From Terrabacter sp. Ter38 (GTDB taxonomy: Bacteria; Actinomycetota; Actinomycetes; Actinomycetales; Dermatophilaceae), in assembly GCF_024519435.1 (NCBI RefSeq), contig NZ_JALJRZ010000011.1, positions 62,001 through 126,000 of the forward strand: 64,000 nt of DNA, given 5' to 3'. Positions within the stretch are counted from its first letter, which is position 1. Each line of letters starts with the position of its first letter. Shown piece by piece: positions 51,128 to 52,930 of the stretch. The notes under the pieces were generated by a model. It did not search any database. It saw nothing but the letters and a program-made list of their open reading frames with translations, and was not told where the DNA came from. Made by a program: the position numbers and the translations under genes.

Positions 51128-51661
51128 CTAGGCGCGGTTGGCCCAGCGCTCCGGGGTGGTCCGGTAGACGCGCGACTCCCCCGCGTACCACTTCTCCATG
51201 ACCCCGAGGTCGTCGAGCCCGAGGCGGCGGCACACGGCCTGCGACGGTTCGTTCGTCGTGTGGGTCAGGGCGTAGACCTCGGGCAGCCCGCCGTCCAACC
51301 CGTGCTGGATCACCGCGGTCGCAGCCTCCGTCGCATAGCCGTGACCCCACGAGTCGGGGTGCAGGTGCCAGCCCACCTCGACCTCTCCGTCGTCGGCGTT
51401 CGGCAGGGTCAGCAGGATGACGGAGCCGGCGACGACCCCGGTCTCGCGGACCTCGACGGCCCAGAAGCCGAGCGGTGTCGTCTCGCTGCGCTCGAGGTAG
51501 CGGTCGATGCGGGCGCGCGCCTCGTCGAGATCCTTCATGAGGACCGGCTCGCCGTCTCCGAGCCACTTCACGACCTCGATGCGGCTCTGGATGTCGAGCA
51601 GGCGCTCGGCCTCGTCGTGCGACCAGGGACGGATGGTGAGGCGGGCGGTCTCGAGGCGCAT
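51128..51661 (-). CDS. GNAT-family N-acetyltransferase
   Basis: A 177-residue GNAT of the RimJ/RimL type: MRLETARLTIRPWSHDEAERL at the start, the acetyl-CoA loop GWHLHPDSWGHGYATEAATAVI (RxxGxG/A-like) and NEPSQAVCRRLGLDDLG. It acetylates an amine, perhaps a protein N-terminus or a small molecule. Start ATG at 51661, chosen over an upstream extension. The 231-bp divergent region to the RelA/SpoT-like gene holds the interleaved inverted repeats. Confidence 0.85.
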   Translation of the reverse strand: MRLETARLTIRPWSHDEAERLLDIQSRIEVVKWLGDGEPVLMKDLDEARARIDRYLERSETTPLGFWAVEVRETGVVAGSVILLTLPNADDGEVEVGWHLHPDSWGHGYATEAATAVIQHGLDGGLPEVYALTHTTNEPSQAVCRRLGLDDLGVMEKWYAGESRVYRTTPERWANRA

Positions 51662-51725
51662 GGCGACACGCTCGCACCTGCCTGCCCCGTCCGTCCACGC
51701 CATTCCCTGTGCACCGGGTCATCAC

Positions 51726-51778
51726 GTGACTCAGAGGACCGCACTGTGCGTTGAGTCACCGGGCAACCCGACGCACAG
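51726..51778. other. interleaved inverted repeats with H-type pseudoknot topology
   Basis: Stem 1 arms GTGACTCA (51726-51733) and TGAGTCAC (51752-51759); stem 2 arms CTGTGCGT (51744-51751) and ACGCACAG (51771-51778). All 16 base pairs are Watson-Crick. The arms interleave (S1-S2-S1-S2) with loops of 10, 0 and 11 nt, and the last loop itself can pair as CGGG-CAA-CCCG. It lies 115 bp before the RelA/SpoT-like start and 65 bp before the GNAT start. It could be a structured RNA, a pair of mutually exclusive hairpins, or overlapping operators. Confidence 0.7.
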
Positions 51779-51892
51779 CGTCCGTGCCGGCACTGCGGCC
51801 CGGTGGGTTGGGGCGCCTCGGATCGCGAGGACCTCTGGTGGTTCCGTGACCACCGGTCGCCGCCCGTCCTGCGATCACGGCAGGATGGCGGC

Positions 51893-52930
51893 ATGTTCGA
51901 CAGCGATGGAGCAGCCGCGACCGACGAGGGGGGCGCCCCGCCCACCGAGACCAGCGAGGTGGCACAGGCGTACGCGGCGGTGCGCCCCGAGGTCGAGACC
52001 GCGACGGCGCTGTTCGTCGAGATGGTCACCGGCCTGCTCGACGAGGCCGGCATCAACTACCTCAGCGTGAGTGGCCGCACCAAGTCCGTGGCGTCCTTCG
52101 CCGCCAAGGCCGAGCGACGCCGCGACGGCCGGCTGCTCTACCCCGACCCGCTCGCCGACATCACCGACCAGATCGGCGTCCGCGTCATCACCTACGTCCA
52201 CGACGACGTCGCCGCCGTCGCCGAGCTGCTGGCCGAGGAGCTCGCCGTCCTCGACGACCGCGACATGGGCCTCGAGACCGCACGATCGGGCCGCTTCGGC
52301 TACGCGAGCCGCCACCTGCTCGTCGCGGTCGACGCGAGCCGCACCGTCCCGCCCGCCTACGAGGCACTCCGCCGCCGCAGCGCGTCGGTGCAGATCCGCA
52401 CGGTGCTCCAGCACGCGTGGGCCGAGTTCGAGCACGACATCCGCTACAAGGGCACCGTCCCCGAGGAGCACGCGCACGACCTGGACCGCCGCTTCACCCT
52501 CGCTGCCGGTCTCATCGAGCTCGCCGACCGCGAGTTCTCGGCCATCCGCGACCGGCTCCAGATGGCCCTCCCGGCCAGCCCGCCCGACGCCGTGGAGCAG
52601 GACTCCCGCATCAGCACGCAGGACCTCGCGAAGTTCCTCGCCTCGAAGTACGCCGACGCCGGCTGGTCGCGCACCGACCACTACACGTGGGTGTCCGGCC
52701 TGCTGCTCGAGCTCGGCATCACGTCGGTCGACGCGCTCGCCGAGGTCATCGCGCCCGTGGACGCGGCCGGCCTCATCGAGAGGATGGGCTACAAGTACCC
52801 GCCCGGCGCGGTGCGCCGGCTCGACGACGCGCTGCTCGCCACCTTCGGCACGCGCTACCTCGACCTCGAGGGCAACGCCCACCGCCGGGCCTCGCTCGAG
52901 GGTCGCCTCGAGCGCCTCGGGGGGAGCTGA
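51893..52930 (+). CDS. RelA/SpoT-domain protein with changed catalytic motif
   Basis: A 345-residue stand-alone synthetase-type protein. RelA_SpoT domain about 30-185: SVSGRTKSVASFAAKAERR (ATP-binding loop), DITDQIGVRVITYVHDD, RFGYASRHLLV and VQIRTVLQHAWAEFEHDIRYKG. The Glu of the usual EIQIR or EVQIR motif, a metal-binding residue in Rel synthetases, is Ser165 here. The C-terminal 110 residues add a helical domain I do not recognise. It may make (p)ppGpp poorly, use another metal geometry, or modify another substrate such as tRNA. A strong hairpin follows the stop. Confidence 0.82.
   Translation: MFDSDGAAATDEGGAPPTETSEVAQAYAAVRPEVETATALFVEMVTGLLDEAGINYLSVSGRTKSVASFAAKAERRRDGRLLYPDPLADITDQIGVRVITYVHDDVAAVAELLAEELAVLDDRDMGLETARSGRFGYASRHLLVAVDASRTVPPAYEALRRRSASVQIRTVLQHAWAEFEHDIRYKGTVPEEHAHDLDRRFTLAAGLIELADREFSAIRDRLQMALPASPPDAVEQDSRISTQDLAKFLASKYADAGWSRTDHYTWVSGLLLELGITSVDALAEVIAPVDAAGLIERMGYKYPPGAVRRLDDALLATFGTRYLDLEGNAHRRASLEGRLERLGGS

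Follow-up and report, generated by a model that had tools for sequence, protein, structure and literature searches.

Interleaved dyads beside a Terrabacter RelA/SpoT-domain gene are probably two partly decayed palindromic DNA units, favored as relic sites of an XRE-associated repeat family

Two interleaved inverted repeats in Terrabacter sp. Ter38 (genome G000) had been described, from a 64,000-nucleotide stretch of its DNA (the window), as having the topology of an H-type RNA pseudoknot. We find that the feature almost certainly belongs to a family of palindromic sites, and that the whole element, at positions 51707-51778, is probably a pair of adjacent, partly decayed palindromic DNA units whose arms merely read as such a pseudoknot. 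The explanation that we favor, with somewhat better than even confidence, is that these units belong to a REP-like repeat family of low copy number and are relics of sites bound by an XRE protein. The protein concerned, here named XRE-FPAH, is a member of the XRE family and carries a conserved stretch, "GRxFPAH...WW", in its C-terminal part. The features of the locus are as follows.

51128-51661, minus strand: GNAT acetyltransferase gene (PF13302, E 2.3e-30), divergent, with its start set at an inner ATG
51707-51733, minus strand: unit 1, CTGTGC, CGGGTC-N7-GACTCA when read on the plus strand
51744-51778, plus strand: unit 2, CTGTGC-GT-TGAGTC-N7-AACCCG-AC-GCACAG, with an outer box on both sides
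51726-51759, no strand: dyad 1, the facing inner half-sites GACTCA of unit 1 and TGAGTC of unit 2
51744-51778, no strand: dyad 2, both outer boxes of unit 2
51803-51892, plus strand: 3' remnant of an XRE-FPAH coding region, sharing the reading frame of the RelA_SpoT gene
51893-52930, plus strand: RelA_SpoT-domain gene (PF04607, E 2.6e-15), 345 amino acids from its ATG

Sites of the family share the core TGRGTC-N7-GAYYCA, accompanied on one or both sides by a lineage-specific outer box. This box is CTGTGC in most Terrabacter units, which span 27-28 bases and read CTGTGC, two bases, TGRGTC, seven bases, GACTCA. A held-out profile of 22 units, from which the window's own were excluded, matched unit 1 at 51707-51734 (E 3.8e-7) and unit 2 at 51752-51778 on the plus strand (E 9.2e-6) and at 51744-51763 on the minus strand (E 2e-4); the next best place in the window reached only E 0.16. 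The half-site AACCCG of unit 2 deviates from the GACCCA of the family. Across units (hand-picked sets of 24 for base constancy and 22 for the profile), the outer box and the half-sites hold the most constant bases, a pattern that appears as in a protein-binding site.

The geometry originally described is accurate. Dyad 1 joins GTGACTCA at 51726-51733 to TGAGTCAC at 51752-51759, and dyad 2 joins CTGTGCGT at 51744-51751 to ACGCACAG at 51771-51778, both as perfect 8-base complements that interleave with loop lengths of 10, 0, and 11; the CGGG-CAA-CCCG string of the 11-base loop lies at 51760-51770. It had been overlooked that the right-hand arms are also part of a longer inverted arrangement with a copy starting at 51707, and the dyads interleave because two palindromes stand side by side. 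The further claim that two such dyads are not expected by chance fails, given that roughly one such pair arises per 64 kb of window composition (G+C content, 72%). Counting interleaved, perfect 8-bp dyads with a span of ≤60 in 30 Markov shuffles of the window per order, we obtained 0.87, 1.07, and 1.17 clusters per 64 kb for orders 1, 2, and 3, with at least one cluster in 60, 63, and 67% of the shuffles, respectively; with the span held to ≤53, clusters occurred in 59 of 150 order-3 shuffles. The real window contains exactly one. The interleaved topology alone is thus no evidence of a feature, which is what would be said for a chance arrangement with no feature behind it. We give that account almost no credence, as the held-out profile matches (E 3.8e-7 and 9.2e-6) fall at a syntenic place; by this measure chance is refuted for the two units, though not for the perfect match of the third arm.

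It is very improbable that the element acts as RNA, be it a pseudoknot, a structured leader, or a switch between two hairpins, even with its geometry confirmed. Dyad 2 is complementary at 8 of 8 positions in the window, whereas the aligned place scores 1, 4, and 3 of 8 in the relatives G003, G007, and G008 (6, 4, and 3 of 8 for the best match anywhere in the spacer). Dyad 2 was found only in the window's genome among these four, and the third arm (51744-51751) was missing at the same place in all three relatives. The search for compensatory changes in relatives that the original prediction had proposed, run for dyad 2, found none in these three genomes and spoke against it, leaving both the pseudoknot, whose stem 2 is lost in 3/3 relatives compared, and the two-hairpin switch without support. 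Dyad 1 is kept at 8, 6, 8, and 8 of 8 positions in G000, G003, G007, and G008, because its arms are the inner half-sites of two adjoining units. Furthermore, the arms did not covary in 11 paired elements from five genomes: 235 of 297 pairs were complementary, with a permutation p of 0.56 against arms taken from different elements (this set omits the G000 locus-B element, which has a deletion in one arm, an overlapping pair at L108, and single units). Predicted RNA folding of 51715-51790 was close to that of shuffles (z -0.93 on the plus and -0.94 on the minus strand), and no Rfam family reached its gathering score anywhere in the 64-kb window. Within 51600-51950, a promoter scan was empty and a terminator scan, which covered G+C-rich hairpins followed by a T run, returned no site. 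A pair of DNA operators, also named as an option at the outset, comes near to what the sequence evidence favors.

The locus itself records what may have happened to the regulator. As first described, the GNAT gene is divergent from the RelA_SpoT gene; the space between them, however, includes at about 51803-51892 the leftover of a larger coding region. The RelA_SpoT open reading frame opens at a GTG at 51803, giving 375 amino acids, and the XRE-FPAH profile matches the 51803-51892 frame with 43.6 bits. In a tblastn search with the G008 protein, whose last part already is the RelA_SpoT gene, the window's DNA covered residues 123-195 only. We read the same locus in eight other genomes of the genus. 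G004, G005, and G006, covered by this query from residues 138, 120, and 137 on, likewise have only a C-terminal stub at the locus, whereas in G007, G008, and G002 the RelA_SpoT frame extends upstream through an XRE helix-turn-helix (HTH) and the conserved FPAH ... WW stretch (502 amino acids from the chosen ATG in G008). Pfam places HTH_31, HTH_3, and RelA_SpoT in one frame of 501-506 amino acids in G008 and G002, the two of these three that were scanned, and in a genome of another genus:

L011, 1048-2553: single frame with XRE HTH and RelA_SpoT domains, G008
L015, 111-1613: single frame with XRE HTH and RelA_SpoT domains, G002
L215, 4563-6080: single frame with XRE HTH and RelA_SpoT domains, G087

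In G003, which has the HTH, the frame departs downstream of it, and in G001 inside it. Upstream of the HTH coding region stand 2, 5, and 3 units in G003, G007, and G008, the first of them inverted. A CRISPR array was considered for G007 and rejected, as the stretches between its repeats resemble each other by eye. Six of the nine genus genomes have sites at E ≤1e-3 (G000, G001, G002, G003, G007, and G008), and they include all five with at least part of an HTH at the locus. At this threshold the family scan found none in G004, G005, or G006, with one match at 0.03 in G005. Alone among the nine, the window's genome has sites at that threshold but lacks an HTH at the locus, and it appears to have kept its sites while losing HTH-coding DNA there; loss, not gain, is indicated because leftover coding DNA remains.

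Within the RelA_SpoT domain itself, window positions 52020-52470 include the string SASVQIRT. Synthetases carry a glutamate before VQIRT, and the activity of this domain may differ. A weak PADLOC match to PDC-S33 covers the RelA_SpoT part at 51803-52927 (E 1.9e-8, 32 bits), and the NCBIfam model GTPPhKinYjbM scored only 56 bits against a cut-off of 320.

Beyond the genus, a scan of 186 genomes of the family with a 24-unit profile that included the window's units, and whose filters lose some weak matches, reached E 1e-3 in eight (the six genus genomes plus G087 and G088), with weaker matches, up to 0.05, in at least 16 more. A strict pair pattern, which misses the window itself and other genera, was found in five stretches of an 84,980-species collection and in 3/186 family genomes; a fully palindromic core was found in 2/396 genomes of the order. 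In G087 and G088 the array carries a different outer box, CCTCTG, and precedes a homologous XRE-RelA_SpoT frame, part of the HTH being missing in G088. In G143, G145, and G146 the core precedes an XRE-FPAH gene that lacks RelA_SpoT, and in G313, from another family, it is found 3' of an XRE-FPAH gene. The start of the nearest site is 147-255 bases ahead of the assumed ATG in G003, G007, G008, G087, G088, G145, and G146.

To quantify this association, we took 12 three-kb loci with an exact core outside the genus and 28 control loci (7 from the window's genome and 21 RelA_SpoT loci) and scored them with an XRE-FPAH profile trained on G002, G007, G008, and G087. An XRE-FPAH gene (E ≤1e-3) was present in 5/12 core loci and 0/28 controls (Fisher p 0.0012; best control E 0.0032), and in 4/10 core loci once training genome G087 was removed (p 0.0028). 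For the other seven of the 12, no XRE-FPAH gene lies within about 1.5 kb, and G148, G015, and G394 have no such neighbor in the stretches examined. G129 (L143) has a related arrangement, also inverted, that combines CTGTGC outer boxes with a TGGTTC/GAACCA core, and there the 12-kb stretches L227 and L228 gave no XRE-FPAH profile match. Structure prediction for XRE-FPAH was poor overall (mean pLDDT 52), with blocks of 74-85 in the HTH part. A phage or plasmid origin was considered and rejected: the G146 XRE protein had no tblastn match in plasmids or phages, and the XRE alignment found no confirmed relative in viral contigs.

Copies away from XRE genes behave differently from promoter operators, and a pure promoter-operator reading was widened for this reason. 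Of 17 such scored sites, 10 lie between convergent, 6 between tandem, and 1 between divergent genes, compared with 18 convergent among 107 neighboring gene pairs in the examined loci (P 1.1e-4; with weaker cases dropped, 7/14, P 0.0043). The count uses one locus per site group, with genes called by a codon-position rule, and excludes the window's locus, sites beside XRE genes, and sites lacking called neighbors within 250 bases on both sides (left out for their neighbors: L108, L110, L220, L221, L228, L234, L235, L236, L237, and L243). Six of the 10 convergent cases are backed by Pfam matches in both neighbors (L216, L217, L218, L135 = L238, L156 = L246, and L225); L109 was judged on open reading frames only, L222 was taken as the L217 orthologue by gene sizes, and for L154/L244, where the rule gave differing right-hand neighbors, the Pfam-supported one was used. 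Near the 3' ends of 174-, 174-, and 173-amino-acid genes in G087, G088, and G003 (L217, L222, and L103) there is also a site, and the G087 gene has ACT domains by Pfam.

This placement is the main argument for regarding the sites as REP-like or terminator-like hairpins transcribed at gene 3' ends, with the XRE neighbor incidental, a possibility to which we assign a real but minor share. REPs are placed likewise, at gene ends and between convergent genes (PMC3733652). Outside the genus, several sites show outer stems that pair perfectly over 9-20 bp, and the flanking arms in G313 and G394 vary between sites yet remain largely complementary, which in these two genomes would point to a hairpin or a symmetric site and away from one read purely by its sequence. 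On the other hand, the empty terminator scan, the Terrabacter arms that lack covariation whereas their half-site sequence is conserved, and the position of the window's own site between divergent genes all count against transcribed hairpins, which would also leave the neighboring XRE genes unexplained.

That the inverted units jump as a nonautonomous mobile element of the REPIN or MITE type seems unlikely, although inverted pairs do occur with spacers varying from 18 to 40 bases and one element has a second copy. A 134-bp stretch of the locus-B element recurs, 89% identical, on C7 of G003:

G003:C7:40591-40723 (L205/L226): second locus-B copy, flanked on both sides by a 12-base direct repeat, by eye

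This repeat is weak evidence for target duplication because a string within it is found at other places in these genomes too. Copy number is low, at no more than nine matches listed per genome at E ≤0.05 in a scan that loses some weak matches, and a Y1 (RAYT-type) transposase (PF01797), the only type searched, was found in 0/9 genus genomes, while the control matched in 5 of 14 named genomes.

The proposed relic sites can be compared with several known systems. Autoregulation through palindromes located upstream of the regulator gene is frequent among XRE proteins (PMC12565409, whose main text contains neither GAGTC nor GACTC). Similarly, in several genera an XRE gene is preceded by the palindromic core; a palindrome upstream of the regulator's own gene is thus found in relatives, with the HTH part missing in the window. 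Unlike such operators, the site family forms arrays of 2-5 units with lineage-specific outer boxes, has further copies between convergent genes, and is associated with an XRE domain that in some genomes is fused in frame to RelA_SpoT, the window being without the HTH. REP and REPIN sequences with RAYTs are also short extragenic palindromes, often inverted pairs, at gene ends, as found here, and REPIN clusters adjoin RAYT genes (PMC3116915), much as the cluster here adjoins one associated gene. In contrast, this family has few copies per genome, where REPs are high-copy, its unit ends show no GTAG or CGTC tag by eye, and its associated gene encodes an XRE protein in place of the Y1 transposase missing from all nine genomes. 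As in small alarmone synthetases and toxSAS toxin-antitoxin systems, RelA_SpoT is joined with another domain at the locus; the partner here is an XRE HTH with an FPAH stretch. At the level of titles, which does not prove absence from print, the literature yielded none on an HTH-RelA/SpoT fusion or on Terrabacter palindromes.

From its association with the sites, XRE-FPAH seems rather more apt to bind them than not. We infer that dimers most likely bind the palindromes, that the cluster upstream of the XRE-FPAH coding region would control its own expression, and that dispersed copies near gene ends may serve as REP-like 3' elements or as roadblocks of bound protein. XRE-FPAH forms, in some related genomes, the N-terminal part of a frame that continues into the RelA_SpoT domain; the pair in the window's genome, where the HTH-coding DNA is gone at the locus, is probably a relic. 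It is unlikely still to function there because the HTH is gone and one half-site of unit 2 is changed. Against relic XRE-binding sites stand the retention of sites without an HTH at this locus, the seven of 12 core loci without a nearby XRE-FPAH gene, the dispersed copies mainly between convergent genes and not at promoters, the G313 site 3' and not 5' of its XRE gene, the partial loss of the G088 HTH, and the complementary arm changes of G313 and G394, which would favor a hairpin there.

More tentatively, we can imagine a REP-like system in which an XRE-FPAH partner replaces the transposase, binding both the cluster at its own promoter and palindromes at gene ends, with outer boxes that change together with the protein between genera; the RelA_SpoT fusion in Terrabacter and one further genus would then tether an alarmone-synthetase-type enzyme to DNA sites. 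What appeared to be an RNA pseudoknot becomes the traceable relic of a regulator and its sites, part of a small family of repeats associated with a DNA-binding protein that in one branch is joined to a RelA_SpoT domain. If the binding is true, it would tie palindromic repeats to a regulator in place of a transposase and direct an alarmone-type enzyme to DNA.
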